The notes under the pieces: generated by a model
What the model saw: the letters and a program-made list of their open reading frames with translations, nothing else
Databases searched by the model: none
What the model was told of the DNA's origin: nothing
From: Rhodococcus aetherivorans
Lineage (GTDB): Bacteria; Actinomycetota; Actinomycetes; Mycobacteriales; Mycobacteriaceae
DNA length: 35,647 nucleotides
NCBI RefSeq assembly: GCF_011058165.1
Contig: NZ_JAALEG010000067.1
Location: 1-35,647 of the forward strand
Reading direction: 5' to 3'
Shown here: positions 18,451 to 33,966 of the stretch, one piece after another
Layout: every line of letters starts with the position of its first letter
How positions within the stretch are numbered: position 1 is the stretch's first letter
Made by a program: the position numbers and the translations under genes

Positions 18451-18477
18451 CACTGTACGTGCTGTTTCCCGACAGTG
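18451..18477. promoter_or_regulatory. Inverted repeat in front of the XRE-cupin gene
   Basis: CACTGT (18451-18456) and ACAGTG (18472-18477) flank 15 bases containing CTGTTTCCC. It begins 6 bases before the start codon of the regulator, overlapping the expected promoter/leader. The CTGTTTC string also occurs in the amine-operon motifs, so autoregulation is possible. Confidence 0.35.
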
Positions 18478-18507
18478 GACGATCGTGCGAGGGGCAGGCA
18501 CACGGAA

Positions 18508-19939: not shown

Positions 19940-20668
19940 TCAGTACGCCGAGGCGTTGTCGACGTGGAAGTGGTAGAGCCCGCGGGCGGAGCCGTAGCGG
20001 GTGAACTCGGCGGGGTCGGCGTCGAAGCCGGCCGCCCGGAGGAGTTCGCGCAGTTCCTCGAGGTGCTCGGGCCGCATCTCCTTCTTGACGCAGTCCGCAC
20101 CGAGGGAGGCGACGGTGCCGCGGACGTAGATGCGCGCCTCGTACAACGAATCTCCGAGGGCCTCGCCGGCGTCGCCGAGGACGACGAGCCGTCCGGCCTG
20201 TCCCATGAAGGCGCTCATGTGGCCGATGCTGCCGCCGACGACGATGTCGACGCCCTTCATGGAGATGCCGCAGCGGGCGGCGGCATTGCCCTCGATCACC
20301 AGCAGCCCGCCGTGGGCCGTGGCGCCGGCGGACTGGGAGGCGTTCCCGGTGACGCGCACGGTGCCCGACATCATGTTCTCGGCGACCCCGACCCCGGCGT
20401 TGCCCGCGACGGTGACGGTCGCATGCTTGTTCATCCCGGCGGCGTAGTAGCCGACGTGGCCTTCGATGCGCACGTCGATCGGCCGGTCGAGCCCGCACGC
20501 GAGGGCGTGCTTGCCCTGGGGATTGGTCACGGTCACCGCGGCCGGGGCCTCGGTGGCCTGCAGTGCGGCGTTCAGTTCGCGCGTGGTGGTGACGTCCAGG
20601 TCGTACGTCGCCGTGGCGGGGAGCGTGTCGGTGGGCAGTGTGTCGGTGCGCAGCGTCTCGGTGGTCAT
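19940..20668 (-). CDS. GXGXG-domain glutamate synthase-like subunit (GlxC/MgsB type)
   Basis: A 242-residue protein made of the right-handed beta-helix (GXGXG) domain that ends normal glutamate synthases. The repeats are visible from about residue 68 to 190: GHVGYYAAGMNKHATVTVAG, GNAGVGVAENMMSG, GNAAARCGISMKG and GDAGEALGDSLYEA. In the complex it scaffolds the amidotransferase and FMN domains. I chose ATG 20668 because CCGGAGAC precedes it; an in-frame ATG at 20725 would overlap the previous gene and has no ribosome binding site. The N-terminus is Thr-rich (TETLRTDTLPTDTLPATAT), which is unusual. Confidence 0.88.
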   Translation of the reverse strand: MTTETLRTDTLPTDTLPATATYDLDVTTTRELNAALQATEAPAAVTVTNPQGKHALACGLDRPIDVRIEGHVGYYAAGMNKHATVTVAGNAGVGVAENMMSGTVRVTGNASQSAGATAHGGLLVIEGNAAARCGISMKGVDIVVGGSIGHMSAFMGQAGRLVVLGDAGEALGDSLYEARIYVRGTVASLGADCVKKEMRPEHLEELRELLRAAGFDADPAEFTRYGSARGLYHFHVDNASAY

Positions 20669-20712: not shown

Positions 20713-21600
20713 TCAGCGGTGCCATACGTAGACCCGCTCCGGCTCGGGCTCGAAGATGTGAGCGTCCGCGATGCCGGGCAGGCCGGCGAGGGCCCGGAAC
20801 TCGGAGGCCATCGCGACGTACGCGTCGGTCTCGGCGACGATCGCCGGCTTGCAGGCGATCGGGTCGCGTACGACGGCGAACGAGTCGGACGTCGACACGA
20901 GGAGGGTGTAGAACCCGTCGAAGCGCTCCCCGAGCAGACGCAGGGCCTTCTCCAGGTCGGCGCCCTCGGCGAGGTGCTTGGCGACGAACCGTGCCCCGAC
21001 CTCGGTGTCGTTCTCGCTGTCGAATGCCACACCCTCGGCCTCGAGTTCGCGCTTGACCGACAGGTGGTTGGAGAACGAGCCGTTGTGCACCAGGCACTGG
21101 TCCGGGCCGACGGCGAACGGGTGCGAGCCGGCGGCGGTGACGGCCGATTCGGTGGCCATGCGGGTGTGGCCGACGCCCTGCCAGCCGGAGGCGGCCGGGA
21201 TCCCGAAGCGCTCGGCCAGCGCCACCGGATCGCCCATGCCCTTGAGGACGGTCACGTCGTCGCCGAAGCCGATGATCGTTGCACCGGGGTCGACGGCGCG
21301 GACGGTGTCGGCGAGCAACTGGGCCGGGACCGGCGCGTGGAGCACGGTGGTGGGGGCCAGGTCGATCGCGGTCACGGTCACGCCGAGTGCGGCACCGGCG
21401 GTGGCGGCGACGTCCGGGGCGGCGCCGAGCAGGGACACCGACGCGTGGCCGGCGGGGGAGAAGGTGGGGTCGCCGTAGAGGGCGACTCCGGCCGAATCCG
21501 GTCCCCGGTCGACCATCTGGCCGAGCATGCCGGTCAGCAGGCCACCCAGCCGGGGGGCGAGGGAGGCGTCACGCAGGTGAAGCCCGACGATTCCGCACAT
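20713..21600 (-). CDS. Class II glutamine amidotransferase subunit (GlxB/MgsA type)
   Basis: A 295-residue N-terminal-nucleophile amidotransferase. After Met removal, Cys2 (MCGIVGLHLRD) is the catalytic nucleophile. GVGHTRMATES, HPFAVG and LVHNGSFSNH form the glutamine pocket, and DSENDTEVGARF follows. It corresponds to the glutaminase domain of glutamate synthase. In MgsA-type complexes it may act on gamma-glutamylmethylamide rather than glutamine. ATG 21600 follows AAAGGAGAGACGACCC. It begins 56 bases after the GlnT/GmaS-like gene, with a compact hairpin in the gap, and is followed by the GXGXG and FMN subunits. Confidence 0.9.
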   Translation of the reverse strand: MCGIVGLHLRDASLAPRLGGLLTGMLGQMVDRGPDSAGVALYGDPTFSPAGHASVSLLGAAPDVAATAGAALGVTVTAIDLAPTTVLHAPVPAQLLADTVRAVDPGATIIGFGDDVTVLKGMGDPVALAERFGIPAASGWQGVGHTRMATESAVTAAGSHPFAVGPDQCLVHNGSFSNHLSVKRELEAEGVAFDSENDTEVGARFVAKHLAEGADLEKALRLLGERFDGFYTLLVSTSDSFAVVRDPIACKPAIVAETDAYVAMASEFRALAGLPGIADAHIFEPEPERVYVWHR

Positions 21601-21656: not shown

Positions 21657-23033
21657 TCAGAAGGCGGTCAGGTAGCTGTCGATCTCCCACGAGGTCACGG
21701 TGTTGTGCCAGTGGAAGAACTCCTCCCGCTTGAGGGAGGCGAAGTACTCGGCGACGCCCGGGCCGGCGGCGTCGAGGGCGCCGGTGACGACGGGGTCGGC
21801 GGTGAGCGCGTCCATCGCGTGCAGCAGGGTCATCGGCAGCGTCTCCGAGTTCGGGGTGCCGCCGGGTGCGCCGGGATCGAGCTTGCGGTCGATGCCGTCG
21901 AGGCCCGCCGCGACGGTCGCGGCGGCAGCGAGGTACGGGTTGGCGGAGCCGTCCCCGCCGCGCAGCTCGACGCGGTTGCCGTCCGGAACGCGGAGGTAGT
22001 GGGTGCGGTCGTTGCCGCCGTAGGTGGCGTGCCGCGGCGACCACGTCGCGCCGGAGCTGGTCGCGGTGGCGCCGGTCCGCTTGTAGGAGTTGACGGTCGG
22101 GGCGATCACGCCCTGCAGGGCGCAGGCATGGTCGAGGATGCCGGCGATGAACGCGTAGGCGGTCTCGGACAGGCCGAGACCGCGGGGGTCCTCGGCGTCG
22201 GGGAAGGCGGAGCCGTCCTCCCGCCACAGCGACAGGTGCATGTGCATGCCCGAGCCGGTGCGGTCGGCGAACGGCTTGGGCATGAAGGTCGCGGTCATGC
22301 CGCGCTGCTCGGCGAGCACCGAGATCAGGTAGCGCAGGGTGACGACGCGGTCGGCGGTGGTCATCGCGTCGGCGTACTGGAAGTTCTGCTCGAACTGCCC
22401 GTTGCCGTCCTCGTGGTCGTTGGCGTAGTTGCCCCAGCCGAGGGAGTTCATCGCCGCGGAGATCGAGGTCAGGTGCTCGTACATGCGGGTGACGTCACGG
22501 GCGTCGTAGCAGGGCTGCCGGGAGGTGTCGAGCACGTCGGCGGTGCGCAGCGTCCCGTCCTCGTCGCGCTGGACGAGGAAGTACTCGATCTCGGCGCCGA
22601 CCTTGACGGACAGGCCCCGTTCGGCCGCCTTGCCGAGAACCTCCTTCAGGATCACCCGCGGGGCGTAGGGCCAGGGCTTGCCCTCGACGTGGGGATCGCA
22701 GTGCACCAGCGCAAGGCCCGGGCGCACGAACGGGATCGGCGTGAAGGAGGTGGGATCCGGGATGGCGACGAGGTCGGGATCCTTGGGGACCTGACCCATG
22801 GCTCCGGCGGCGTAGCCCGCGAAGCCGACCCCGTCGGACTGCAGCTCGTCGACCGCCTCGACCGGGACGAGCTTGGCGCAGGGCTTGCCGGCGAGGTTGG
22901 TGAACACCGCGAGGATGAAGCGGGTGTCGGTGGCGCGGGCGAGTGCGGCGAGATCGGCGGAGCCGGCGGCATCGGCGGGGGCGTCCGTGGAGGGCAGACG
23001 CATCACGGGGAGGTCGGTGGCTTCGAGCGTCAT
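21657..23033 (-). CDS. Glutamine synthetase-like ligase, GlnT/gamma-glutamylmethylamide synthetase type
   Basis: A 458-residue member of the type III/GlnT glutamine synthetase group. It shows GVGFAGYA, CDPHVEGKPWPYAPR, VGAEIEYFLVQRD, YANDHEDGNGQFEQNFQYADA, FMPKPFADRTGSGMHMHLSLW, VNSYKR and LELRGGDGSANPYL-type segments (VELRGGDGSANPYL here). The pattern follows that of known gamma-glutamylmethylamide synthetases (GmaS), which join methylamine to glutamate with ATP, more than that of housekeeping GlnA. True ammonia-using GlnT or other gamma-glutamylamide synthetases cannot be excluded. ATG 23033 follows CAGGAGTCCCC. It heads the operon of the three glutamate-synthase-like subunits and is divergent from the N-demethylase operon. 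A shared promoter motif lies 37-63 bases upstream. Confidence 0.88.
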   Translation of the reverse strand: MTLEATDLPVMRLPSTDAPADAAGSADLAALARATDTRFILAVFTNLAGKPCAKLVPVEAVDELQSDGVGFAGYAAGAMGQVPKDPDLVAIPDPTSFTPIPFVRPGLALVHCDPHVEGKPWPYAPRVILKEVLGKAAERGLSVKVGAEIEYFLVQRDEDGTLRTADVLDTSRQPCYDARDVTRMYEHLTSISAAMNSLGWGNYANDHEDGNGQFEQNFQYADAMTTADRVVTLRYLISVLAEQRGMTATFMPKPFADRTGSGMHMHLSLWREDGSAFPDAEDPRGLGLSETAYAFIAGILDHACALQGVIAPTVNSYKRTGATATSSGATWSPRHATYGGNDRTHYLRVPDGNRVELRGGDGSANPYLAAAATVAAGLDGIDRKLDPGAPGGTPNSETLPMTLLHAMDALTADPVVTGALDAAGPGVAEYFASLKREEFFHWHNTVTSWEIDSYLTAF

Positions 23034-23069
23034 GGGGACTCCTGGGGTTCGGCTGCGAAGTTTCATAAG

Positions 23070-23096
23070 GTGAATCGCTGTCGAATGCAATGAAAC
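23070..23096 (-). promoter_or_regulatory. Shared operator motif, glnT-like operon copy
   Basis: On the minus strand: GTTTCAT, then 13 bases (TGCATTCGACAGC), then GATTCAC. It lies 37 bases before the ligase start. Its first half, 13-base gap and CAT at spacer positions 3-5 match the copies at 23241 and 33857. A further GTTTCAT on the plus strand at 23060-23066 makes an inverted pair with this one. Confidence 0.6.
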
Positions 23097-23210
23097 ATAG
23101 CATGCATGACGGGCGTGTTACGCCGCCGTGAGTTTGTGGTGACGGTCCGGCTCGGCCCGCGCCGCTCGGGGGAGAAACGAATGTTCCTGACGCTGAGAGG
23201 ATTCGGTTAC

Positions 23211-23224
23211 ACGCGTTAACGCGT
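23211..23224. promoter_or_regulatory. 14-bp palindrome ACGCGTTAACGCGT
   Basis: A perfect palindrome lies 16 bases upstream of the plus-strand shared motif and 110 bases before the cupin start. It is of a type often bound by LacI or GntR-like dimers. Its regulator is unknown. Confidence 0.45.
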
Positions 23225-23240
23225 CGGCAACCGTCGGTGC

Positions 23241-23267
23241 GTTTCATCTCATTACTGTCTGTTTCAC
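23241..23267 (+). promoter_or_regulatory. Shared operator motif, N-demethylase operon copy
   Basis: GTTTCAT, then 13 bases (CTCATTACTGTCT), then GTTTCAC: a direct repeat of period 20, two helical turns. It lies 67 bases before the cupin start and matches the copies in front of the glnT-like gene and the FAD amine oxidase. Confidence 0.65.
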
Positions 23268-23334
23268 GTCAGCGATCGACGTTCCGTCCTCCCGCCCACG
23301 GCCGGTGCAGCCGGCCTCGTTCCTAGGAGCACTC

Positions 23335-23712
23335 ATGGCAGAAACCACCACGGTTCCCGCATTCCGCGTCACCGCCGACTTCTGGAAGACCCTGCCCCAG
23401 ATGTCCACCGAGGAATTCCCGGGCACCGAGGGCTTCATCGACGACGTCTATCCCAACCCCGAGGGGTCGGAGATGGCCGCGGGCTACTTCAAGCTCGCGC
23501 ACACCGACGCCCCGCTGGACTATCTGTACGAGTACGACGAGATGAAGGTCGTCCTCGAAGGGGAGTTCCGCCTGGAGAACCTGGATACCGGCCAGGTGGA
23601 GATCGCCCGCGCCAAGGACGCGATCTTCTTCCCCAAGGGCTCGCGGATCCGCTTCACCACCCCCCACGGCGCCCTGGCGTTCTACGTCGGCCAGCGCACG
23701 TTCGCACCGTAA
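23335..23712 (+). CDS. Cupin protein, EutQ-like, first gene of the N-demethylase operon
   Basis: A 125-residue single cupin-domain protein (EutQ-like cupin pattern): YEYDEMKVVLEGEFRLENLDTG, then AKDAIFFPKGSRIRFTTPHGALAFYVGQRTF. Only part of the usual two-His/Glu metal set is visible (Asp/Glu in EYDEMK, His in TPHGA), so it could bind a metal weakly or bind a small ligand. ATG 23335 follows TAGGAGC. It leads the six-gene operon, starting 10 bases before the first DmmA-like gene. It may help handle the substrate or product; its exact role is unknown. Confidence 0.85.
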   Translation: MAETTTVPAFRVTADFWKTLPQMSTEEFPGTEGFIDDVYPNPEGSEMAAGYFKLAHTDAPLDYLYEYDEMKVVLEGEFRLENLDTGQVEIARAKDAIFFPKGSRIRFTTPHGALAFYVGQRTFAP

Positions 23713-23722
23713 GGATCCGGCC

Positions 23723-24235
23723 ATGAGCGTCTGTATGGAGACCACCAGCGTGCCGCGCTGGGACGAGGAGCGGACCGTGGCCGACGGCGGCAGGACGGTC
23801 ACCGTCCTGTCGTTCGGCGACGCCGCCACCGACCACGCCCGCCGCCTGGTGACCTCCTTCGAAGGCCGGCGAGTGAGCTGGCTACGGGCGCCCGCCACCT
23901 GGGGCGACGCGGCCGCGGAGGTGCTGCAGCGCCAGCTCTCCGCGGCCCGCGTCGGCTGGCGGCTCGTGCTGGTGGGCGACGAGGCCGCCGTCCTCGCCGC
24001 CCGGGCCGTGGCCGTCGCCGCGGGGGCGCTCGACGACGAGATCCTGCCCGAGGTGCTGACCACGGACACGCGCACGGTGTACTGCGCCCACTGCCGACAC
24101 ACCCACGACGCCACCGCCGCGATCGGGCAGACCAGCACGTGCCCCGCGTGTTCGGCGGAACTCGTCGTGTACCACCACGTTTCGCGCCACCACGGCGCAT
24201 ATCTCGGCTACCAGCTCGACGCGGAGGAAAGCTGA
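23723..24235 (+). CDS. DmmA-like zinc-ribbon subunit 1 (dimethylamine monooxygenase-associated)
   Basis: A 170-residue protein. The N-terminal half has a nucleotide-binding-like alpha/beta pattern (RRVSWLRAPATW, WRLVLVGDEAAV). The C-terminal half has a four-cysteine ribbon, Cys121-x2-Cys124 and Cys140-x2-Cys143, ending in the family signature YHHVSRHHGAYLGY. This arrangement is that of the DmmA-like family found with dimethylamine monooxygenase. In that complex the small subunit accompanies the heme and reductase subunits. ATG 23723 follows AAGGAT. Its stop overlaps the reductase start (TGATG), showing tight translational coupling. Confidence 0.82.
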   Translation: MSVCMETTSVPRWDEERTVADGGRTVTVLSFGDAATDHARRLVTSFEGRRVSWLRAPATWGDAAAEVLQRQLSAARVGWRLVLVGDEAAVLAARAVAVAAGALDDEILPEVLTTDTRTVYCAHCRHTHDATAAIGQTSTCPACSAELVVYHHVSRHHGAYLGYQLDAEES

Positions 24236-25230
24236 TGACCCTCGTATCCGATGCCGGAGCGGCCGTCCGGCGCAGCGACGCGACCCTCGCCCTCACCGTC
24301 GCCGAGGTGGCCACCGTCGCCACCGGAGTGCGGCACGTGCGGTTCGTCGACCCCACCGGTGCGCCGCTGCCGTCGTTCACCCCGGGCAGCCACGTCGTGC
24401 TCTCCTGCGGCGCCCACGACGACGGCCGGCCCCGCCGCAACTCCTACTCCCTGACCGGTCCGGAGCTCGAACCGCAGAGCTACTCGATCTCCGTGCGGCT
24501 CGACGAGACCGGCCGGGGCGGCTCCCGCTGGATCCACGCCCTCGAGGTCGGGGACGTCGTGGAGGTCAGCAGGCCCCGAAGTGCCTTCGCGCCGATCCTC
24601 ACCGCGCGTCACCACATGCTCGTGGCCGGCGGTATCGGCGTCACACCCATCCTCTCGCACGCCCGCGCCGCCGCTCAGTGGGGCCGCTCCTTCGAGGTCC
24701 ATTACACCTTCCGCGAGGGCGACGGCCCGCACCTCGGCGAGTTGCGCGAACTGTGCGGAGACCGCCTGCACACCTACCACACCCCCGAGGAGTTCTGGGC
24801 CGCACTCGGCCCGGCCCTGCTCGATCAGCCGCTCGGCACCCACCTGTACGTATGCGGGCCCTCCGGTCTCATCGACGAACTCACCCGTCGCGCCCGCGGC
24901 GCGGGCTGGCCGGACGCCCGCATCCACTACGAGCACTTCGGTGTCGGCGACCTCGAGCCCGGAACCACGTTCACCGCGCATCTGCGCCGCGCCGGGGTCG
25001 ACATCGCCGTGAAGTCCGGCGTGAGCCTGCTCGAAGCGCTCGAGGCGCGCGGGGTACCGGTGCCCAACCTGTGCCGGCAGGGGGTGTGCGGCGAGTGCCG
25101 GATCCCGGTGGCGGACGGCGCGATCGAGCACCGCGACCTGTACCTGACCGACGCGGAGAAGCACGCCGGCGACTGCATGATGCCGTGCGTCTCCCGCGCC
25201 GGCGGCGAGCGATTGGAGCTGGACCTGTGA
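24235..25230 (+). CDS. PDR/VanB-type FMN and 2Fe-2S oxidoreductase (electron donor subunit)
   Basis: A 331-residue reductase with three modules. The flavin domain has RNSYSL (68-73). The NAD(P)H domain has AGGIGVTPIL (131-140) and YVCGPSGLI. The C-terminal plant-type ferredoxin has Cys280-x4-Cys285-x2-Cys288-x29-Cys318. It passes electrons one at a time from NAD(P)H through FMN to the 2Fe-2S centre. In heme-dependent N-demethylases (secondary amine monooxygenase) such a subunit reduces the heme subunit. ATG 24235 overlaps the DmmA-like stop, and the next gene starts inside its own stop codon. There is only one reductase for two heme subunits. Confidence 0.93.
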   Translation: MTLVSDAGAAVRRSDATLALTVAEVATVATGVRHVRFVDPTGAPLPSFTPGSHVVLSCGAHDDGRPRRNSYSLTGPELEPQSYSISVRLDETGRGGSRWIHALEVGDVVEVSRPRSAFAPILTARHHMLVAGGIGVTPILSHARAAAQWGRSFEVHYTFREGDGPHLGELRELCGDRLHTYHTPEEFWAALGPALLDQPLGTHLYVCGPSGLIDELTRRARGAGWPDARIHYEHFGVGDLEPGTTFTAHLRRAGVDIAVKSGVSLLEALEARGVPVPNLCRQGVCGECRIPVADGAIEHRDLYLTDAEKHAGDCMMPCVSRAGGERLELDL

Positions 25231-26234
25231 CTGCCGCAACCGAATTCGAGGTGCTCCCGGAACGCGTCGCGCGGTTCCCGTTCCCCTTCCCGCGGGACAC
25301 CTACCGGTACAGCACCAACGTCGAGCCGGCCGGGACCCGCGCGGACACGGCGGCCGGCGGCTGGGGTGAGCACCCGGTCGACATGGACGGCTTCCTTCTC
25401 GACGAACTCGCCGAACGACGGCGCGTGCTCGACGCCGACCCGAGCCGCTTCCAGGCGCTCGGGCACATGGAGGTCGCGCAGTGGGACGCGATGCTCACCC
25501 TCATGAAGATGCTGGCCGAGGCATACCCTCAGACGTTCGCGCTCGACCGTGACGGCACCGTCCGGCGGTGGAGCAACCGCGCCCTCGACCTCGAGCAGGC
25601 GTTCGTCTACGGGCAGTCCGCCACCCTGCCCGAGCCGCCGCTGCTGTACATCGGCCGGCAGATCCAGGAGGACGTCGTGCTGCTCGATCAGCGCGACGGC
25701 GCCCTGTGGGGTGACGCGGGCCTGGTGACGTTCGCCGCGGACTGGTCGCTGCGCTTCGACGTCGGGATGAGCTTCCTGCAGATCCACGGTCCCGTGCCCC
25801 GCATCCACACCGAAGGGGTGATCACCCGCGCCCAGTCCTTCCTCATGGGACTGCACGCCGGGCAACGGTATCGGCGCACCAACTGGACCCTCACCGTGGA
25901 CCGCCGGCTCGACACGGCCACCGAGACGTATCCCGAATGGGGACGCGATCGGCGCCTGCTCGCCGAGGGCCCACTCGACGACGTCGGCCGTCGCCTGCAC
26001 CTGCGGGTCGAGGTGCAGCACCTGATCCGGCTCGGCGCGTCCGGCGCGATCATGTTCCTCATCCGCACCTACCTGCTGCCCTTCGAGGAGATCGCGCTGG
26101 TGCCGGAATGGGCCGACCGGCTCTACCGGGTGCTCGAGGAACTGCCCGAGGACATGGCCGACTACAAGGGCATCACGCGCACCCGCGAACCCGGTCTGAA
26201 GTGGTTGCGCGAGTTCGGAGGTGTGCGGCCGTGA
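25227..26234 (+). CDS. DUF3445 heme-dependent oxidative N-demethylase subunit 1
   Basis: A 335-residue DUF3445 protein, the heme-binding PAS-like catalytic subunit of oxidative N-demethylases such as dimethylamine monooxygenase. Segments shared with the paralogue at 26731 include FPFPRDTYRYSTNVEPA, WSLRFDVGMSFLQIHGPVP, RRTNWTLTVDRRLDT, VEVQHLIRLGASGAIMFLIRTYL and YKGITRTREPGLKWLRE. The expected reaction is removal of a methyl group as formaldehyde with O2 and electrons from the reductase. GTG 25227 overlaps the reductase stop (GTGA), with GGAG at good spacing. The exact heme ligand cannot be named from this sequence alone. Confidence 0.9.
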   Translation: MTAATEFEVLPERVARFPFPFPRDTYRYSTNVEPAGTRADTAAGGWGEHPVDMDGFLLDELAERRRVLDADPSRFQALGHMEVAQWDAMLTLMKMLAEAYPQTFALDRDGTVRRWSNRALDLEQAFVYGQSATLPEPPLLYIGRQIQEDVVLLDQRDGALWGDAGLVTFAADWSLRFDVGMSFLQIHGPVPRIHTEGVITRAQSFLMGLHAGQRYRRTNWTLTVDRRLDTATETYPEWGRDRRLLAEGPLDDVGRRLHLRVEVQHLIRLGASGAIMFLIRTYLLPFEEIALVPEWADRLYRVLEELPEDMADYKGITRTREPGLKWLREFGGVRP

Positions 26235-26707
26235 AGAACTCGGGATTCGTCACCGGTGCGGTGCCCCCGATCGATCCGGGCGGGCGCATCCACCTGCTGT
26301 TCAGCCTCGGCGACTGCGCCGACGCGCGGGCCGCGGTGACGGCCTGGGCGGCGCAGGCACTCGCCCTCGGCCGCGTCGCGACCACGGTGCCGAACGCGAG
26401 CGCGGACGAGGTGTCGCGGCTCGTGCGTGAGGCCCGCGCCGGCGCCCGCGTGCTGATCGCCGGCCCGCGGCGTGAGGCGATGGCCGCGACGGCTGCGGCG
26501 CGTACCGCCGGCGTGCTGCCGTGCGAGATGACCACCTACGTCACCGCCGCCGACGGAGTGTCGCTGTTCTGCCCGCACTGCGCCACCACCCAGTCCGTCG
26601 ACGCCGCTCCCGGGGCGGTCGTCGCCTGCGGTTCGTGCGGCCTGGACCTCGAGATCCGTCCTCATCTGTCGGGACATCACGGCACCTATCTCGGCGCCGT
26701 GGCCTGA
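26231..26707 (+). CDS. DmmA-like zinc-ribbon subunit 2
   Basis: A 158-residue second DmmA-like protein with the same plan as that at 23723: an alpha/beta N-terminal half (RVLIAGPRREAM) and a four-cysteine ribbon, Cys114-x2-Cys117 and Cys133-x2-Cys136, ending HLSGHHGTYLGAVA. Overall similarity to copy 1 is modest outside the ribbon, so the duplication is old. GTG 26231 overlaps the stop of the first heme subunit (GTGA), with GGAGG upstream. It is placed between the two DUF3445 genes, making a second DmmA-heme pair. Confidence 0.8.
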   Translation: MKNSGFVTGAVPPIDPGGRIHLLFSLGDCADARAAVTAWAAQALALGRVATTVPNASADEVSRLVREARAGARVLIAGPRREAMAATAAARTAGVLPCEMTTYVTAADGVSLFCPHCATTQSVDAAPGAVVACGSCGLDLEIRPHLSGHHGTYLGAVA

Positions 26708-26730
26708 CCCGCCATCGGAAAGGAACCTTC

Positions 26731-27738
26731 GTGACCACTTCCGTCGTCAGCGACCTGTCCTGCCTGCCGTGGCCTTTCCCCGAGGGCGACAGGACGTTCC
26801 GTTACGCCGTGAACGTCGAACCGGCGCCGCGCCGCACCGAGACCGCCGCCGGGGCCTGGGGCGAGCGCATCGTCGACCTGGGCAAGAGCCACGACGAGTA
26901 CGTCGAGATGATGCGGTTGCGTCGCTCGATCGTCGAGGCCGACCCCGGGCGCGTGCAGATGCTGCCGCACATGACGCCGGCGTGCTGGGACCTGATGCTC
27001 TACTACATGCGCGACATGGCGGCCTCGTTTCCCGACGTCATGCATCTCGACGTCGAGAACGGCGGATACCGCTGGCGCAACGACCTTCTCGGAATCGATC
27101 AATGGTTCGTGCCGGGGGATTCGGGCACCCTGCCGGAGCATCCGCTGGTGTTCATCGGGTGTCAGCTGCCCGACGACGTGCTGCTGGTGACCGAGCGCGA
27201 CGGGCACCTGTGGTTCGACGCGGCGCTGGTCACGTCGTCCGCCGACTGGTCCGTCAAGTTCGACATCGGCATGAGCCTGCACGAGATCCACCGGCCCGTT
27301 CCCGGCCTGACCCCGAACGGGGTGACCGACCGCGCCGAGCAGTTCATGCGGCGCCTCACCACCGAGCGGCCGTACCGGCGGGTGAACTGGACCTTCTCCG
27401 CGGTCGGTTCGCGGCGCCGGGACACCAGCCTCGAGACGATGCCCGAGTGGATGGACGACATGCCGCGGCTGATCGCCGAACGCGACTGGGGCCGCATCCA
27501 GTTGCGCATCGAACTCGAGCACCTGATCCGCCTGCCGATGACGGGGGCGCTGGTGTTCAACATCCGCACCTACATGGCACCGCTCGAGGAGATCGCGCAG
27601 GTCCCGGCGTGGGCCGAGCAACTCGCCGACATCGTCGAGGAACTGCCCGCCGAGATCGCCGCGTACAAGGGCATCGACTCCTACCGCATGCCGGCGATGG
27701 CCTGGCTGCGCGAGCGGACGCGCGCCCGGGCCGCGTAG
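26731..27738 (+). CDS. DUF3445 heme-dependent oxidative N-demethylase subunit 2
   Basis: A 335-residue paralogue of the heme subunit at 25227, of identical length. It keeps FPEGDRTFRYAVNVEPA, WSVKFDIGMSLHEIHRPVP, RRVNWTFSAV, IELEHLIRLPMTGALVFNIRTYM and YKGIDSYRMPAMAWLRE. The differences are spread along the chain, so it is a diverged copy rather than a recent duplicate. It may form a hetero-complex with copy 1 or act on a different methylated amine. GTG 26731 follows AAAGGAACC. It is the last gene of the operon; I see no clear terminator before the next gene at 27809. Confidence 0.9.
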   Translation: MTTSVVSDLSCLPWPFPEGDRTFRYAVNVEPAPRRTETAAGAWGERIVDLGKSHDEYVEMMRLRRSIVEADPGRVQMLPHMTPACWDLMLYYMRDMAASFPDVMHLDVENGGYRWRNDLLGIDQWFVPGDSGTLPEHPLVFIGCQLPDDVLLVTERDGHLWFDAALVTSSADWSVKFDIGMSLHEIHRPVPGLTPNGVTDRAEQFMRRLTTERPYRRVNWTFSAVGSRRRDTSLETMPEWMDDMPRLIAERDWGRIQLRIELEHLIRLPMTGALVFNIRTYMAPLEEIAQVPAWAEQLADIVEELPAEIAAYKGIDSYRMPAMAWLRERTRARAA

Positions 27739-27808
27739 TGGCGCACCGGATTCACCGGCGGCCGGTACGGTGACGGAGGGAGGGTCTCCGGCGAGGGGAG
27801 AAGCGAGC

Positions 27809-28969
27809 GTGCGAGCGTGGAGCGGACCGGTCGACGGCGGCATCGCCGTCCTGGGTGCGGGCCTGAGCGGACTGTCGCTGGCGGCCCATCTCGCCGCCGT
27901 CCCGGCGCGACCCGGCCCGGTGGTGCTCGTCGACGACGGCGCCCGCGACATCCGTGACGCCGGCTGGGCGTTCTGGTCCCGCCGGTCCGGGCTGCTCGAC
28001 GCGGCCGTCTCCGCGCGGTTCGCCCGGATCCGGGTCCATGCGGGCGGACGGGCCCGCACGCTCGGCCTCGGCCGGTACCGGTACGGCGTCGTCCGCGGAG
28101 CCGACCTGGCGTCGGTGGTCGGCGAGGTTACGGACCGAGTCGACGACATCGGGCTCCGCACCGGCCGGGTGACGCAGGTGCACGACGGGGCCCGCCCGCG
28201 TGTCGCCCTGTCCGACGGCACGGAGCTGCACCCCGAGTGGGTCTTCGACGGCCGGGGCCCCGACGCCGACGACCGCGGGACGAGCCCCGATGCGTGGCTG
28301 GACTTCCGCGGGTGGCGGATCCGCACCGAAGCTCCCCTGTTCGATCCCGACGTCCCCACCCTGTTCGACTTCCGCACCGATCAGCGCCGGGCGGCGTCCT
28401 TCGTGTACGTGCTGCCCACCGATACCCGGCACGCCCTCGTCGAGCACACGAGTTTCGCGCACCCCGACGGCGGGCCCGTCGGCACCGCCGCTCACGACGA
28501 GGCGCTCCGGGAGTACCTGGCGGCCGTGCTCGGCGCGGACGAGGACACCTACGTCGTGGAGGCGGACGAGTCCGCGCGGCTGCCGTTGGCGTCGCGGCCG
28601 CCCGCGCGGCGCAGCGGCAACATCGTGCGCATCGGCGCCGCGGGCGGAATGCTCAAGGGCAGCAGCGGATATGCGTACCAGCGGATCCAGTGCGACAGTG
28701 CGGCGATCGCGCAGTCGCTCGCCCGGCACGGGCATCCCTTCGACGTGCGGCCTGCTCCGTCCCGGTTCGCCCGGTACGACCAGGGGCTGCTGCGGGCCGT
28801 CGTCGAGCGGCCCGCGGTGCTCGAGCGCGCCTTCGCGGGGCTGTTCGACCGGTCCTCCGCGGAGCCGATCCTGCGGTTCCTCGACGAGGAGTCGACGTGG
28901 CGCGACGAGGCGGCGCTGTTCGCGTCGCTGCCCGCAGCCCCGCTGCTCAGGGCGATGGCCGGCCGCTGA
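27809..28969 (+). CDS. Lycopene cyclase family protein (CrtL type)
   Basis: A 386-residue flavoprotein. The N-terminal dinucleotide fold has VLGAGLSGLSLAAHL. The WAFWSRR, VFDGRGPDADDRG, DFRTDQ, FVYVLPTDTRHALVEHTSF and AAGGMLKGSSGYAYQRIQ segments are those of actinobacterial lycopene beta-cyclases. It would close the ends of lycopene to beta-ionone rings in carotenoid synthesis at the membrane. GTG 27809 follows GAGGGGAGAAG; GTG 27770 would add 13 residues without a good ribosome binding site. It follows the N-demethylase operon by 70 bases on the same strand, but no functional link is evident. No other carotenoid gene lies in the window. Confidence 0.87.
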   Translation: MRAWSGPVDGGIAVLGAGLSGLSLAAHLAAVPARPGPVVLVDDGARDIRDAGWAFWSRRSGLLDAAVSARFARIRVHAGGRARTLGLGRYRYGVVRGADLASVVGEVTDRVDDIGLRTGRVTQVHDGARPRVALSDGTELHPEWVFDGRGPDADDRGTSPDAWLDFRGWRIRTEAPLFDPDVPTLFDFRTDQRRAASFVYVLPTDTRHALVEHTSFAHPDGGPVGTAAHDEALREYLAAVLGADEDTYVVEADESARLPLASRPPARRSGNIVRIGAAGGMLKGSSGYAYQRIQCDSAAIAQSLARHGHPFDVRPAPSRFARYDQGLLRAVVERPAVLERAFAGLFDRSSAEPILRFLDEESTWRDEAALFASLPAAPLLRAMAGR

Positions 28970-29068
28970 CCGTGCCCGGGTGGTACCGCGCGACCGGCCG
29001 CGGGCGACCCGGTCGGGCCCGGCTCGTTCGATCGGCGAGGTACCGCGCTTCGCCCTAGGGTTGGGCGC

Positions 29069-29956
29069 GTGTCGGACTCGGTGGGCGCAGCGCTGCTGGC
29101 GATCGCCGCGGCCTTGTGCATCGCGGTGGGTACGGTCGTGCGTCAACGCACGGCGGCCGGTGTGCCGGACGACGCCGTGGGCACGCTGGGCCCGATCACC
29201 GCTCTCGTCCGCAACCCCGTGTGGTGGCTGGGCACCGTCGCCGGCGTCGGGGGATACGCCTTCCAGGCCGCGGCGCTCGGCCGGGGCTCTCTGCTGCTCG
29301 TGCAGCCGCTGCTGGTGCTGTCACTCCTGTTCGCGCTGCCACTGGGTGCCCGCCTCGCCGATCGCAGCGTCGGCCGGAGTGAGTGGCTGTGGGCGGCGGC
29401 GCTCACGGGGTCGGTCGCCGTGCTCGTGGTGCTGGGGAATCCCCGGCCGGGACTCGCCCGGGCCGAGCCGCTGCACTGGGTGCTCACCTGTCTCGTCGGT
29501 GCCCCGCTGGTGGCGGCCGGTCTGATCGCCGCCCGGCGGGTGCGCGGCGCGCGCAAGGCGCTGCTGCTCGGCGCCGTGGGCGGCGCCCTGTTCGGGGTCT
29601 CGGCCGTACTGACCAAGGGAGTGGTCGACATCGCGTCCCGCGGTGTGCTGCCGCTCGCCACCGCTCCCGAACTGTGGGCGCTCCTGCTCCTCGCCGCGGG
29701 GGCGGTGACGGTTCAGCAGGCGGCGTTCCAGGCCGGTGATCTGCGGGCGTCGTTGCCCGCCACCACCGTCCTGGAACCGGTCGTGGCGTCGCTGCTCGGA
29801 TTCGTGGTCCTGGGGGAATACCTCGACGCGGACCGCGCCATGAGTGTGGTTCTGGTCACCGCGGCGGCGGTGATGGTGGCCGCGACGGTCGCCCTCGCGC
29901 GGGGCGACGCGGCCGCGTCGTCCCCCGACCAGGCGGTATGTCCTCCGGGGGAATAG
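29069..29956 (+). CDS. DMT-superfamily (EamA-like) membrane protein
   Basis: A 295-residue integral membrane protein with about nine to ten hydrophobic segments and internal duplication, as in drug/metabolite transporters. The second half ends with TTVLEPVVASLLGFVVLGEYL, the typical EamA motif. It belongs to the DMT proteins of unknown substrate common in mycobacteria and Rhodococcus. The start is GTG 29069; no strong ribosome binding site is visible. It stands alone, 99 bases after the lycopene cyclase gene, and a 224-base leader region of whiB3 follows. Confidence 0.8.
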   Translation: MSDSVGAALLAIAAALCIAVGTVVRQRTAAGVPDDAVGTLGPITALVRNPVWWLGTVAGVGGYAFQAAALGRGSLLLVQPLLVLSLLFALPLGARLADRSVGRSEWLWAAALTGSVAVLVVLGNPRPGLARAEPLHWVLTCLVGAPLVAAGLIAARRVRGARKALLLGAVGGALFGVSAVLTKGVVDIASRGVLPLATAPELWALLLLAAGAVTVQQAAFQAGDLRASLPATTVLEPVVASLLGFVVLGEYLDADRAMSVVLVTAAAVMVAATVALARGDAAASSPDQAVCPPGE

Positions 29957-30141
29957 CCCGGCCGGCGGCGCCGCCCACGGTCTCGCGAACCTTCGACAAA
30001 TCTCGCTCTTTGTTGGCATGAATTTCGGTGGCGCGGGGTACTCCCCGGTCCATGAGATCGACGAACCGAGAATCGGCCCTTCGGGGCGGTCCCGGCGCGT
30101 GGATCGAAGTGAGCGAAAGGTCGCAGACTTTCGTCCGGTCC

Positions 30142-30160
30142 GCTCGCACTGCGTGCGAGC
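30142..30160 (+). other. Hairpin in the whiB3 leader
   Basis: GCTCGCAC (30142-30149) and GTGCGAGC (30153-30160) form a perfect 8-bp stem around TGC, ten bases upstream of the AAGGAG ribosome binding site. It could influence translation or be an attenuator. There is no further riboswitch-like structure that I can name in the 29957-30180 gap. Confidence 0.5.
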
Positions 30161-30180
30161 CTGCTGTCAAGGAGAGCCCC

Positions 30181-30474
30181 GTGCCATTGTCACCTCACCC
30201 GCTCCGGCCGACCGTCGATGTCTGGAACTGGCAGATGCAGGGCTTGTGCCGCGGCGTCGACTCGTCGGTGTTCTTCTCGCCCGACGGCGAACGGGGCCGA
30301 GCGCGGTACCAGCGAGAGTCGAAGGCCAAGGAGATGTGCCATCGGTGCCCGGTCATCGAGCAGTGCCGCGAGCACGCGCTCACCATGGGCGAACCCTACG
30401 GAGTGTGGGGCGGGATGTCGGTCTCCGAGCGGGAGAAGTACGTGCAGTCCCGGAGACGGAAGATCGCGAGCTGA
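30181..30474 (+). CDS. whiB3: WhiB-family iron-sulfur transcription factor, WhiB3-like
   Basis: A 97-residue WhiB protein. Four cluster-binding cysteines are at 23, 53, 56 and 62 (GLCRG, MCHRCPVIEQC). The GVWGG beta-turn is at 74-78 and is followed by a basic tail (QSRRRKIAS). The stretch DVWNWQMQGLCRGVDSSVFF and DGERGRAR match mycobacterial WhiB3, which senses redox and NO through its 4Fe-4S cluster and binds the primary sigma factor. The start is GTG 30181 after AAGGAG; the open frame reaches further upstream but without family similarity. It is convergent with the stress phosphatase, sharing a bidirectional terminator. Confidence 0.88.
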   Translation: MPLSPHPLRPTVDVWNWQMQGLCRGVDSSVFFSPDGERGRARYQRESKAKEMCHRCPVIEQCREHALTMGEPYGVWGGMSVSEREKYVQSRRRKIAS

Positions 30475-30486
30475 GCCGGATTTCGA

Positions 30487-30513
30487 CCGGCACCGACCCC
30501 CGGTCGGTGCCGG
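30487..30513. terminator. Bidirectional terminator between whiB3 and the PP2C gene
   Basis: CCGGCACCGAC (30487-30497) pairs with GTCGGTGCCGG (30503-30513) across 5 bases. It lies 12 bases after the whiB3 stop and 2 bases beyond the stop codon of the opposing gene. Confidence 0.8.
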
Positions 30514-30515
30514 GT

Positions 30516-32528
30516 TCACGTCTCCGGATCCCCTGACGGCTCCGGGATGTCGCCGCCGCCGGGGTCGGCCCGGCCGTGGAGTCCGACCAGGCTGAGCACG
30601 TGGTGGGCGGTGCTGCCGGGTGGCGCCACCAACGTGACGGTGGAGTGCTGCTTGGCCGCGCGGTCGCGGGCCGTCGAGAGCAAGGAGACCCCGGCGGAGC
30701 CGAGGTTGGTGACCTCGCTCAGATCCACTGTCACCGACAGCGTTCCGCTGTGGGATACGGCGTCGAGGCACCCCTTGAGGATGGGCGCGGTGTCGATGTC
30801 GATGTCCCCCCGCACCGCGAGACGACCGGGTTCGGTTTCGGCGACGGCGAATTCGGGCGAGACCTCGGGACGGCCGACGATCGCGCCTTCCGTGAACTCG
30901 GTGACGACGCGGGCGCTGCGGGTGAGCCGGAACGTGACCGTCGCGGTCGTGCCCGTGTCGTCGCTGTCGACGACGAGGTCGTCGGCGAAGATCCGGACCA
31001 TCGTGAGCCCGCGGCCGCGGCTGGTCGGTAACCGATGTGGCTCCGGGGTTTTCGCGGGGGTCTTCCAGCGGCCCCGGTCCCGCACGCGGACCCGGAGGCA
31101 GCCGTCGCCGTCGAGCGTCCCGTCGATGTCGACCGGGGCATGCCCGGCGTCGCCGCCGGAATAGGCGTGCTCGACGACGTTGGACACGAGTTCGGAGACC
31201 GCGTGCTCGACGGCCACAGTTCCGGCATGGTCGGCACCGATGCGCACGAGCCATCGCCGCAACGACGTCCGTGCCGACCTCGGTGCCTCCCGGTCGGCGT
31301 GGAGCCGAAGCTGCAGGGGATCCGGCATGGCCGTGCGCTGAGCGGCCACGATGGTCACGTCGTCGCTGTATCCGGTTTCCCGGAGCAGGAATTCGAGGAT
31401 CTCCGCGCACACCCGATCCACCGTCCGGGCGCGCGTGTCCGGGATCGGGAACGACCGGCCGGCCACGCTCAGGGCCGCCCGCTCCGCGAGTTCGGCGGTG
31501 CTCGCCGGCGGGGGCCGGCCGGGGCGCTCGATCAGTCCGTCGGTGTAGAGCAGCACGACGTCGCCGGCGGCGAGGGCGTCGGTGGCGACGGGGAACGTCG
31601 AGCCGGTACCGATCGGCGTTCCGCCCGAGGGTGGGAGGTATCGGACCGCCCCGGCCGGGCTCGCCACCAGCGGCGGGGGATGCCCGCTCGTGCAGTAGCG
31701 GACCCGGCCGGTGGCGGTGTCGAGGACGACGACACAGACCGTCGCGGTGCGGGCGCCGGGGACGTGCGCCGAGAAGGCGTCGAGGGTGGACAGGGCGGCG
31801 GCAACGTCCGCGCCCGCGAGGATCTGCTGGCGCAGCACCGCGCGGAGCTGCCCCATCACGGCGGCGGCCTCGACGCCGTGCCCGACGACGTCCCCGGTGA
31901 TGAGCACGAGTTCGCCGTTCGCAAGGGCCAACGCGTCGAACCAGTCGCCGCCGGCGGCCGTGTCCTCGGCGGCGACCAGGTAGGCGGCCGCCACCTCGGC
32001 CCCCGGCACGACCGGGACGGACGGCGCCAGCAACGCCTGCTGCATCACCGTCACCGCGTCGCGGGCCTGCTCGTACTTCTCCGACATCAGCTGGGCCCGT
32101 GCCTCGGCGCCGCGCCGGGCCAGGACACTGTCGGTCACGTCGGAGGCGAAGAAGAGCAGCCCGGCGACGCCGCGGTCGGGGTCGCGACGGGGGGCGATGG
32201 TGAAGTCGAAGTAGCGCTCCCGGACCACGCCGCTACCGTCGGTATCGATCTGCAGGCGCCACTCCTTGGCGGTCTCGGCGACGCCGGTCGCCGCCACCCG
32301 GTCGAGCAGCTCGAAGAACTGCTGGCCCTCGAGTTCCGGTACGACCTCGCGCACCGGCCGGCCGAGGAGGTCGTCGCGCCCCAGCAGCGCCCGGTAGGCG
32401 GCGTTGGTCGCGACGTACACGTGATCGGGTCCCTGCCACGCGCCGAGGGCGAACGGCAGTGCTTCGAACACGCGGAGAACCGTGTCCGGCTCTCCCGTGG
32501 CCGAGAACAGGTCCTCGCCTTCCGGCAT
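30516..32528 (-). CDS. PAS-PP2C phosphatase-kinase-STAS stress regulator (Rv1364c-like)
   Basis: A 670-residue regulator with four modules. A PAS domain is at about 15-135 (HVYVATNAAYRALLGRDDLLG). A SpoIIE/RsbU-type PP2C phosphatase is at 175-397 (GGDWFDA 193-199, GDVVGHG 212-218, YTDG 328-331, YSDD 387-390). An RsbW-type histidine-kinase-like ATPase is at about 405-535 (ELVSNVVEH 446-454, GRGLTMV 505-511). A STAS anti-anti-sigma domain is at about 560-655, with the likely phosphorylated Ser611 in NLGSAGV. This is the domain order of M. tuberculosis Rv1364c, a one-protein partner-switching module for the SigF-type stress response. There is no membrane segment, so signals are sensed in the cytoplasm. 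ATG 32528 follows GGAGAAGG. Confidence 0.93.
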   Translation of the reverse strand: MPEGEDLFSATGEPDTVLRVFEALPFALGAWQGPDHVYVATNAAYRALLGRDDLLGRPVREVVPELEGQQFFELLDRVAATGVAETAKEWRLQIDTDGSGVVRERYFDFTIAPRRDPDRGVAGLLFFASDVTDSVLARRGAEARAQLMSEKYEQARDAVTVMQQALLAPSVPVVPGAEVAAAYLVAAEDTAAGGDWFDALALANGELVLITGDVVGHGVEAAAVMGQLRAVLRQQILAGADVAAALSTLDAFSAHVPGARTATVCVVVLDTATGRVRYCTSGHPPPLVASPAGAVRYLPPSGGTPIGTGSTFPVATDALAAGDVVLLYTDGLIERPGRPPPASTAELAERAALSVAGRSFPIPDTRARTVDRVCAEILEFLLRETGYSDDVTIVAAQRTAMPDPLQLRLHADREAPRSARTSLRRWLVRIGADHAGTVAVEHAVSELVSNVVEHAYSGGDAGHAPVDIDGTLDGDGCLRVRVRDRGRWKTPAKTPEPHRLPTSRGRGLTMVRIFADDLVVDSDDTGTTATVTFRLTRSARVVTEFTEGAIVGRPEVSPEFAVAETEPGRLAVRGDIDIDTAPILKGCLDAVSHSGTLSVTVDLSEVTNLGSAGVSLLSTARDRAAKQHSTVTLVAPPGSTAHHVLSLVGLHGRADPGGGDIPEPSGDPET

Positions 32529-32625
32529 GCCGTGTACCTTCTCCGGTTTCCGCGGTGAAGCGTCACCTTCAGTTCTATACCCCTCCGGGGCTTCGGTACA
32601 GCGGCGTGCCGGCCGGCCCGGTTCG

Positions 32626-33816
32626 TCAGCGCATCTCTCCGGCCCCGACGTACGGATTGAGGCTGGCGAGCGGTTTGCCCTCGGCGAAACGGGAGTAGCG
32701 GAAGTCGGCGCCGTCGACGGCGGCGTCGCTGCTGATGCCGTCGAGCAGGAGGTCGGCGGCGAGGCGGCCCACGGCCGGGGAGATCTTGTAGCCGTGGCCG
32801 CTGAAGCCCACGAGCAGGAACAGCCCCGGGGCGGGGGACGGCCCGATGACCGGGTTGTAGTCGGGGGTGGTGTCGTAGCACCCCGCGTACGACGAGGCGA
32901 GCCGCGGATCGGGCATGGCCGGCAGCAGCCGGTCCAGCTTCGCGATGGCGGTTTCCACGAACGGGTCGTCGGCGCGATTGACGTAGTCGTCCGGGTCGGC
33001 CCACTCCGGGGTGGAGTGGTCGCTGTTGCCCACCAGCAGGTCCCCGTTGGGCTCGCGCCGGATGTACTGCAGGTTCACCAGGTCGGAGAAGGTGGGGATG
33101 TCCGGGGTGGGTTCGCCCTGGTCGACCAGCAGGAGTTGTTCCCGCTGGGCCCGGATCGGGATGTCCACCCCGGCGGTCGCGCCGAGCGCCGGCGACCACA
33201 CGCCGGTCGCGAGCACGACGGTGCCCGCGTGGATCTCGGAGCCGTCCGCGAGCCGCACACCGTAGACCTCGCCGCCGTCGCGCTGCAGGAGCGAGGTGAC
33301 GGTGGTGCTCTGACGCACTCGCACGCCGAGGGCACGGGCGCGGGTGCCGTAGGCCATTCCGGTCATGTAGGCGTCGCCGTGGCCGCCGAGTGGTTCGTAC
33401 GCGAAGGCCGCGAAGGGATCGAGGGCGATTCCGGGCAGCAGTCGGCGGACCTCGTCGGCGTCGATCGTCTCGACGGGCACACCGAGGGAGCGGTGCATCT
33501 CGACGTTGGCGGCGAGCGGGGCGGTGTTGTCGGGCCCGACGCCGACGACGTATCCGGTCTGCCGGAAGCCGATGTCGGTGCCGAAGATCTGCTCGGCCTC
33601 GGAGAAGACCTGCACGCCGTGCCAGGCCATCGCCGCCAGCGACGGAACGCCGTAGTGGCAGCGGACGATGCCGCTCGACTTGCCGGTCATGCCGGAACAC
33701 AGAGTTCCGCGTTCCAGGACGAGAACGTCGGTTTCGCCGCGCTCGGCGAGGCACCAGGCCGCAGCCAGGCCCTCGAGTCCGCCGCCGACGATGACGATGT
33801 TCGCGGTTTCGGTCAT
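32626..33816 (-). CDS. FAD-dependent amine oxidase (DAO family, sarcosine oxidase beta-like)
   Basis: A 396-residue DAO-family flavoprotein. The N-terminal FAD fold is IVIVGGGLEGLAAAWCLAERG. GKSSGIVRCHYG marks the sarcosine-oxidase-beta-like branch. GGHGDAYMTG, VLATGVWSP and the C-terminal DYNPVIGPS, GLFLLVGFSGHGYKISPAVG are also present. Such enzymes oxidise N-methylated or secondary amino acids. Its leader carries the same motif as the glnT-like and N-demethylase operons, so it may be the missing step that oxidises N-methylglutamate or sarcosine-like intermediates. That is inference. ATG 33816 follows GTGAGGAAGCACG. No alpha, gamma or delta sarcosine-oxidase subunits are adjacent, so it would work as a single-subunit enzyme. 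Confidence 0.88.
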   Translation of the reverse strand: MTETANIVIVGGGLEGLAAAWCLAERGETDVLVLERGTLCSGMTGKSSGIVRCHYGVPSLAAMAWHGVQVFSEAEQIFGTDIGFRQTGYVVGVGPDNTAPLAANVEMHRSLGVPVETIDADEVRRLLPGIALDPFAAFAYEPLGGHGDAYMTGMAYGTRARALGVRVRQSTTVTSLLQRDGGEVYGVRLADGSEIHAGTVVLATGVWSPALGATAGVDIPIRAQREQLLLVDQGEPTPDIPTFSDLVNLQYIRREPNGDLLVGNSDHSTPEWADPDDYVNRADDPFVETAIAKLDRLLPAMPDPRLASSYAGCYDTTPDYNPVIGPSPAPGLFLLVGFSGHGYKISPAVGRLAADLLLDGISSDAAVDGADFRYSRFAEGKPLASLNPYVGAGEMR

Positions 33817-33847
33817 CGTGCTTCCTCACAACTCGCAACAGGGGTGG

Positions 33848-33877
33848 TTTCGTGCTGAGAAACAGTGTTGCACGAAA
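33848..33877. promoter_or_regulatory. Inverted repeat TTTCGTGC...GCACGAAA upstream of the amine oxidase
   Basis: An exact 8-bp inverted repeat (33848-33855 and 33870-33877) with a 14-base spacer, overlapping the shared motif at 33857-33883. It may mark a dimer site or be an incidental feature of the motif. Confidence 0.45.
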
Positions 33878-33883
33878 TGAAAC
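33857..33883 (-). promoter_or_regulatory. Shared operator motif, amine oxidase copy
   Basis: On the minus strand: GTTTCAT, 13 bases (TTCGTGCAACACT), then GTTTCTC, a direct repeat of period 20. It lies 40 bases before the amine oxidase start, nearly the same distance as in the glnT-like gene (37). It matches the copies at 23070 and 23241 in both half-sites, spacing and the C-R-T at spacer positions 3-5. Confidence 0.65.
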
Positions 33884-33966
33884 AGTTGTGCCCGCCCCCA
33901 TGTGACAACGACGTAAAACCTGCTGGGCGGCAACGTTCCATCGTTGACGCCGGTAGCCTCGTCCGC

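Follow-up and report, generated by a model that had tools for sequence, protein, structure and literature searches.

Methylated amines are a widespread source of nitrogen and carbon and belong to the diet of soil bacteria. Full-text searches of one open-access library returned no description of how their breakdown is controlled in Gram-positive bacteria, and three of the closest described systems are as follows.

(i) The described pathway regulators that we found are TmaR (AraC type) and TmoR (GntR type) of Ruegeria pomeroyi, which belong to families other than the one considered below and act on tmm, tdm, dmm, and gmaS-mgs. TmaR activates most of its targets, and the system has been described in Alpha- and Gammaproteobacteria (PMC13390433).

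(ii) The XRE-cupins of Pseudomonas are described as local repressors that bind beside their own genes, the motifs of three of them being palindromic; PauR governs gamma-glutamylation genes, and its homologue PuuR governs putrescine use (PMC7901475).

(iii) The GlnR regulon of actinomycetes includes amt1, glnT, mgs-like, and oxidoreductase genes, which need GlnR in Mycobacterium smegmatis (PMC10704036, PMC4222082).

The locus described here lies in a 35,647-nt stretch of Rhodococcus aetherivorans DNA (contig NZ_JAALEG010000067.1, hereafter the window), in which one motif precedes several methylated-amine operons. This motif is, with good probability, the operator of an XRE-cupin repressor that controls its own gene as well as methylated-amine catabolism and acts on top of activation by GlnR; the binding, repression, effector, and action of GlnR in this organism are predicted from architecture, conservation, and co-occurrence. 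The kind of regulator is already known: like PauR, PsdR, ErfA, and Escherichia coli PuuR, it joins an HTH to a cupin domain and has a palindromic, dimer-sized site by its own gene and neighboring targets, but it differs from these four in its tandem palindromes, its methylated-amine targets, its actinobacterial host, and an adjoining GlnR-like box. It would share its pathway with TmaR and TmoR and genes with the GlnR regulon, but its motif lacks the GlnR spacing. For the operator, its four-part form, and the regulon, the full-text searches of that library found no report.

Methylated-amine genes of the window

Judged by homology, the window holds the gmaS-mgs-dmm pathway set together, i.e., a type III glutamine synthetase (GS) with MgsABC-like and Dmm-like genes.

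16278..17630 (+): Amt, ammonium transporter, beside the regulator
17798..18445 (-): XRE-cupin regulator (HTH_3 + Cupin_2, 215 aa), the proposed repressor
18580..19905 (-): MgsC-like protein, FMN glutamate-synthase domain (N-methylglutamate synthase), role by homology
19940..20668 (-): MgsB-like GXGXG protein, 62% to a GXGXG-domain gene, role by homology
20713..21600 (-): MgsA-like class II glutamine amidotransferase, role by homology
21657..23033 (-): GlnT, type III glutamine synthetase (TIGR03105, 619.8 bits versus a cut-off of 469.6)
23335..23712 (+): small cupin, EutQ-like, at the head of the dmm operon
23735-24235 (+): DmmA-C-like gene, opening a dimethylamine-monooxygenase-like stretch (23735..27738)
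24235-25230 (+): reductase of the dmm operon
25227-26234 (+): DUF3445/HODM-like gene
26231-26707 (+): second DmmA-C-like gene
26731-27738 (+): second HODM-like gene
32626..33816 (-): DAO, FAD-dependent amine oxidase, sarcosine-oxidase-beta-like

The best PDB relatives of GlnT are 7cql (type III glutamate--ammonia ligase) and 9qur (glutamate--methylamine ligase). One reductase is seen in the dmm operon of the window (24235-27738), and many Gordonia operons give two reductase matches.

Architecture of the proposed operator

A preliminary description of the window had reported three exact copies of GTTTCAT-N13-GWTTCWC, at 23070-23096 (-), 23241-23267 (+), and 33857-33883 (-), with C, A/G, and T at spacer bases 3 to 5 in each; a pattern search recovers all three copies, spacer bases included. 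The gaps given from motif to ATG also stand for the cupin gene (67 bases; ATG at 23335) and for DAO (40 bases), that for glnT (start at 23033) being 36 bases rather than 37. The direct repeat of period 20 that had been described corresponds to half-sites A and C of a larger element, but it overlooks two inverted half-sites, B and D: spacer bases 4 and 5 are the first bases of B, and a further half-site, RYGAAAC, lies at +31..+37 of the GS and DAO sites. In full, the GS and DAO operators form a 37-bp array of four 7-bp half-sites that are 10 bp apart and alternate in orientation (consensus, GTTTCAY N3 RTNNRAC N3 GWTTCAC N3 RTGAAAC), and extension of the sites resolves this array into a pair of 17-bp inverted repeats that stand in tandem at a distance of 20 bp.

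23060..23096 (-): GS operator (glnT/gmaS-mgsABC operon), four half-sites, GTTTCAT TGC ATTCGAC AGC GATTCAC CTT ATGAAAC; 26 bases from its end to the ATG (23033)
23241..23277 (+): cupin-dmm operator, with half-sites GTTTCAT (A) and GTTTCAC (C) intact but ATTACTG (B) and AGCGATC (D) degenerate
33847..33883 (-): DAO operator (FAD amine oxidase), four half-sites, GTTTCAT TTC GTGCAAC ACT GTTTCTC AGC ACGAAAC; 30 bases from its end to the ATG (33816)

The four-part form also emerges from a matrix trained solely on half-sites A and C of cupin promoters: run over 29 GS/DAO sites at offsets from -14 to +46, it has a positive mean score only at +1 and +21 in the forward and +11 and +31 in the reverse orientation, 27 of these sites having first been found with a matrix that held all four half-sites. 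Half-site D ends in GAAAC in 16/16 sites that were found without using D (before GS, the DAO-GS operon, and DAO); it is changed at amt sites (GGCGGAC, GGCGAAC, and GGCAAAC) and at most Gordonia GS sites (AGTGGAC). The cupin promoter of Rhodococcus retains A and C, whereas its B and D are poor, and many Rhodococcus loci keep AGCGATC or AGCGATT there as the fourth half-site (23271-23277 in the window), replacing RTGAAAC. Upstream of the cupin operator lies a block, GGTTACACGCGTTAACG (23205-23222), that is without canonical GlnR spacing and is well conserved in most of eight aligned Rhodococcus sequences.

Specificity of the motif

Random placement across the genome would speak against a regulon; the exact pattern occurs three times in the 6.43-Mb genome, each time in the window, and a reversed control pattern does not occur at all. 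With up to two mismatches, there are 4 matches in the window versus 0.10 expected, the fourth (33847-33873, plus strand, two mismatches) being the DAO site read in reverse, because that site is palindromic. Only the strict pattern is specific, since the same tolerance yields 17 matches in the whole genome versus 3 for the control. Across 298 genomes of the order, a scan with the strict pattern returns 9 places in 7 genomes (with no control match among the matches listed): the three of the window, one before the cupin gene of a genome of the same genus, and five others, each the single match of its genome, whose fetched stretches contain none of the query genes, so that the exact pattern is a poor probe outside the genus.

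A 37-position, sequence-only model, built from 30 sites and giving rough E-values, reaches further. In the strain's own genome it retrieves (E ≤ 10) the GS and DAO sites only, both of which were training sites. In the 298 genomes of the order (E ≤ 0.3) it finds 19 distinct places, at least 3 of them training sites (two in the window and one in genome G172): 15 lie before GS, DAO (that of the window), amt, and an alcohol dehydrogenase account for one each, and the remaining place, which is unrelated, adjoins an integrase-like gene. Each of 20 chosen relatives has a model match at E ≤ 1, several of the sites coming from the training set and three match places (G345:C38, G326:C1, and G328:C66) having been left out of inspection. 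Locus L200, from a genome without the XRE-cupin, shows a long palindrome that resembles the array, beside a gene judged by eye to be integrase-like. The alcohol dehydrogenase with an array upstream (L206, in one genome of the same family) resembles the mycothiol-dependent formaldehyde enzyme. On a Streptomyces plasmid (L239), a gene annotated as S-(hydroxymethyl)mycothiol dehydrogenase lies beside DAO and mgs genes.

Conservation among relatives

A genome search with the small cupin yields 68 named loci, 37 of which carry an exact GTTTC-N15-GTTTC pair within 420 bp upstream of the cupin match (38 sites). Upstream of GS, an array score of at least 15 is reached in 26 of 32 loci versus 10 of 1443 background windows, with a matrix whose training genomes overlap in part with those tested; among the 32 are 13 mycobacterial loci whose GS sites were absent from training, and 12 of these pass. 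Conservation before orthologues, which the preliminary description had made a test of its proposal, is thereby borne out. Six GS regions fall below 15: three loci (L122, L160, and L161) have DAO as the first gene and an array before DAO, in two (L126 and L154) the aligned start overran a listed array, and L145 scores 12.6. Loci of this test also hold arrays before DAO, cupin, and XRE-cupin genes, and some relatives have them before DAO, amt, or cupin-dmm (amt is operator bearing in four: L038, L040, L042, and L043). In an alignment of eight species, the GS array and the cupin boxes stand out as conserved islands.

The genes behind the operator vary. In Rhodococcus and Nocardioides loci, the cupin mostly heads dmm-like genes; in Mycolicibacterium (L030, L034, and L035), it heads an aminomethyltransferase-type gene and a flavin monooxygenase, which we take to be a trimethylamine N-oxide (TMAO) demethylase and a trimethylamine (TMA) monooxygenase, i.e., a tdm-tmm-like operon. 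In Sinorhizobium, relatives of both of these genes (58% each in the aligned parts) adjoin dmm-like genes. In R. opacus-type loci, the GS operon begins with DAO, and in many loci of Gordonia and Mycolicibacterium DAO has MgsC on one side and the XRE-cupin on the other; because DAO lies within the GS/XRE-cupin cluster in these relatives, it is understandable that the distant DAO of the window shares the operator. Where DAO stands alone, the site is present in 7 of the 9 loci listed and absent in 2.

Taken as a regulon, as had been proposed, the genes that share the motif have strong computational support from orthologue conservation, the absence of the motif elsewhere in its own genome, and co-occurrence. 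The spacing of the GTTTC-N15-GTTTC pair does resemble that of -35 and -10 elements, as it would if the repeats were the core promoter of an alternative sigma factor (or else chance AT-rich stretches), but this sits poorly with the palindromic four-part symmetry, the variable distance to start codons, and the presence of the repeats before orthologues in many gene orders. We give such readings hardly any probability and reject them on the three exact genome matches and the 26/32 GS loci versus 10/1443 windows.

The XRE-cupin and its own site

The XRE-cupin at 17798 had been named as a candidate regulator, a proposal to which co-occurrence and a putative operator before its own gene now give strong computational support. 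Its two domains score above their cut-offs (HTH_3, 42.6 bits versus 23; Cupin_2, 29.5 bits versus 27.2); Pfam gives only HTH_3, HTH_26, and Cupin_2 in its frame, with no AraC- or GntR-type domain, and it scores 35.5 bits, below the cut-off of 211, for the NCBIfam PuuR equivalog NF007408. Its structure relatives include a controller protein, 3clc. We take 3clc to be the restriction-modification controller C.Esp1396I, whose XRE-type dimers sit in tandem on about 35 bp; unlike C.Esp1396I, the XRE-cupin has a cupin domain, and its function differs.

18464..18480 (-): 17-bp inverted repeat GTCCACTGTCGGGAAAC, 19-35 bases before the XRE-cupin start codon, a likely autoregulatory operator

An inverted repeat built from the same half-sites also precedes the gene in relatives; in R. 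opacus, R. jostii, R. koreensis, and Gordonia jinhuaensis, it is perfect or nearly so. A 17-bp repeat scoring at least 10 precedes the XRE-cupin in 15 of 29 chosen loci (versus 32 of 1560 background windows) and is absent at that score from the other 14. Between mgsC and the XRE-cupin gene, a 51-bp near-perfect inverted repeat (18509-18559) forms a terminator-like boundary.

Orthologues of the XRE-cupin with at least 62% identity occur in 47 of 50 genomes (the strain's own plus 49 of those behind the 68 cupin loci). The three that lack it are Pseudoclavibacter and Conexibacter, which have no site before the cupin, and R. wratislaviensis (G307, L027), in which a cupin-type motif is present but neither XRE-cupin nor MgsC was found; Conexibacter has MgsC, and within its cupin locus no site exceeds 9 bits. 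In the sample of 298 genomes of the order, the XRE-cupin is present in 28, the array in 18, and the two together in 17 (Fisher p = 1.8e-19): the array occurs in 17/28 genomes with the XRE-cupin versus 1/270 without it, and at E ≤ 0.3 with strict filters it is absent from 11 of the 28. Because all 27 MgsC-bearing genomes of this sample also hold the XRE-cupin, co-occurrence marks an association with the pathway rather than the binder, and linkage in one operon contributes to it. The inverted repeat before the XRE-cupin's own gene suggests the binder more sharply than co-occurrence does.

Might another transcription factor read the array, the XRE-cupin being a mere member of the regulon? An operator before the XRE-cupin gene shows membership only, and R. 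wratislaviensis has the motif without the protein, in keeping with this idea. Against it, the XRE-cupin remains a neighbor of these genes in loci of many different gene orders, it recurs beside glnT/mgs/dmm genes on three plasmids of Alphaproteobacteria and close to glnT and sox genes in Acidithiobacillus, and its recognition region, ISKAM(L/M)SKIEN(A/S)Q(T/A)SCSL, hardly varies over 34 rows (four of which are second retrievals of one gene), as expected if all XRE-cupins read one half-site. We regard another binder as improbable and retain the XRE-cupin as the presumed reader. A plasmid of Candidatus Mycobacterium methanotrophicum (L238) also carries an orthologue, with 76% identity in the aligned part and transposases around it.

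GlnR-like boxes

Separate boxes that resemble GlnR sites lie upstream of two of the operators.

23117..23143 (-): GlnR-like box of GS, GTCAC-n6-CTCAC-n6-GTAAC, ending 20 bp upstream of the GS operator
33902..33917 (-): weaker GlnR-like box upstream of DAO, TTTAC-n6-GTCAC

In the alignment of eight species, the first appears as GTTAC-n6-GTGAG-n6-GTGAC, which nearly fits GTnAC-n6-GTnAC, one published GlnR consensus (PMC10704036): the outer GTTAC and GTGAC fit, and the middle GTGAG is one base off. It is the single match in the window versus 0.01 expected, with a pattern written after the alignment had been seen. A related pattern, likewise devised after the alignment, occurs within 150 bp upstream of 11 of 25 GS/DAO arrays versus 0.042 expected per stretch, and in 6 of 12 arrays checked a stricter triple box stops exactly 20 bases short of the array. 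The DAO-type box, with 2 matches in the window versus 0.96 expected, is not significant alone; a similar block lies upstream of DAO in four relatives.

Since a GlnR-like box stands apart from the GS operator and beside it, GlnR is probably a second regulatory layer at the GS promoter. One study counts msmeg_6259-6264 of M. smegmatis, comprising amt1, glnT, and 6261-6264, among the genes that depend on GlnR under nitrogen starvation (PMC4222082); we matched these genes to those of the window by name and order alone. The same likeness of names and order would also fit a motif that is itself a variant box of GlnR or of another global nitrogen regulator, as would the resemblance of GTTTC to the complement of the GlnR b-site, GaAAc (PMC10704036). 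The confinement of the motif to amine genes in its own genome and the near-fitting box that stands apart, 20 bp away, make such a variant scarcely credible. We reject it, in agreement with the earlier view that the motif is no normal GlnR box: its half-sites are 10 bp apart and alternate, versus the 11-bp direct repeats of GlnR.

Proposed mechanism

Under the operator reading, one XRE-cupin dimer would read one 17-bp inverted repeat, GTYTMNY N3 RNKARAC; at GS and DAO, where two such repeats lie in tandem 20 bp apart, two dimers could therefore sit side by side on one helix face. With the operator only 26-30 bases before the ATG at GS and DAO, bound protein should block transcription, and the XRE-cupin would also repress its own gene. 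A methylated-amine catabolite, probably sensed in the cupin domain, would release the repressor. Under nitrogen shortage, GlnR would open the GS promoter, which the XRE-cupin would keep closed as long as no methylated amine is present, so that full expression would need both low nitrogen and substrate.

An XRE-cupin that acts at these sites chiefly as an activator, or whose ligand decides between repression and activation, is unlikely, if a little less so than another binder. The cupin-promoter motif, 67 bases before the ATG, is far enough away for an upstream position, and TmaR, the TMA master regulator of Ruegeria, is mainly an activator (PMC13390433). The array at GS and DAO, by contrast, with its distance of 26-30 bases from the start codon and GlnR-like boxes upstream, has the arrangement expected of a blocking site, and the XRE-cupins studied in Pseudomonas are repressors (PMC7901475). 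Repression thus remains our preferred reading.

Occurrence beyond Actinobacteria

A plasmid search with the XRE-cupin (E ≤ 1e-30) returns 254 records, mainly from rhizobia; identity is under 60% in 252, and it ranges from 46.7 to 54.0% among the 38 of these that were listed. Six non-actinobacterial loci were opened. Four of them (S. meliloti, Rhizobium SL42, Phyllobacterium, and A. caldus) contain glnT, mgs, dmm, or sarcosine-oxidase genes in the vicinity; the Aminobacter locus has none of these nearby, and the Kovacikia locus is without annotation and contains an MgsA-like stretch at 43%. Array-like sites occur at the divergent purU/XRE promoter of A. caldus (22.6 versus a highest score of 18.3 among 60 Markov sequences) and before the gene of the cyanobacterium Kovacikia (23.7 versus a Markov maximum of 20.5). 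The stretches read from the rhizobial and Aminobacter loci (L240, L241, L243, and L245) hold no clear array (6.7-12.4), nor does that from Streptomyces (L239; top score, 6.3), whose fetched stretch excludes the GS promoter. For an operator system beyond Actinobacteria, these sites are suggestive only.

Implications

It is nearly as likely as not that, both within Actinobacteria and outside them, an ancient XRE-cupin repressor with a tandem-palindrome operator governs the catabolism of TMA, dimethylamine (DMA), and methylamine, together with formaldehyde disposal in certain strains. It would then take the place of the AraC/GntR system of marine Proteobacteria, and a GlnR box fixed 20 bp away would turn it into a nitrogen gate with two inputs. 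With a defined operator and a named regulator, the regulon would become readable from actinobacterial genomes, and the array and GlnR-like box together suggest how substrate sensing may join the global nitrogen signal. The operator thus offers an answer, open to test, to how these bacteria would switch on their methylated-amine diet.
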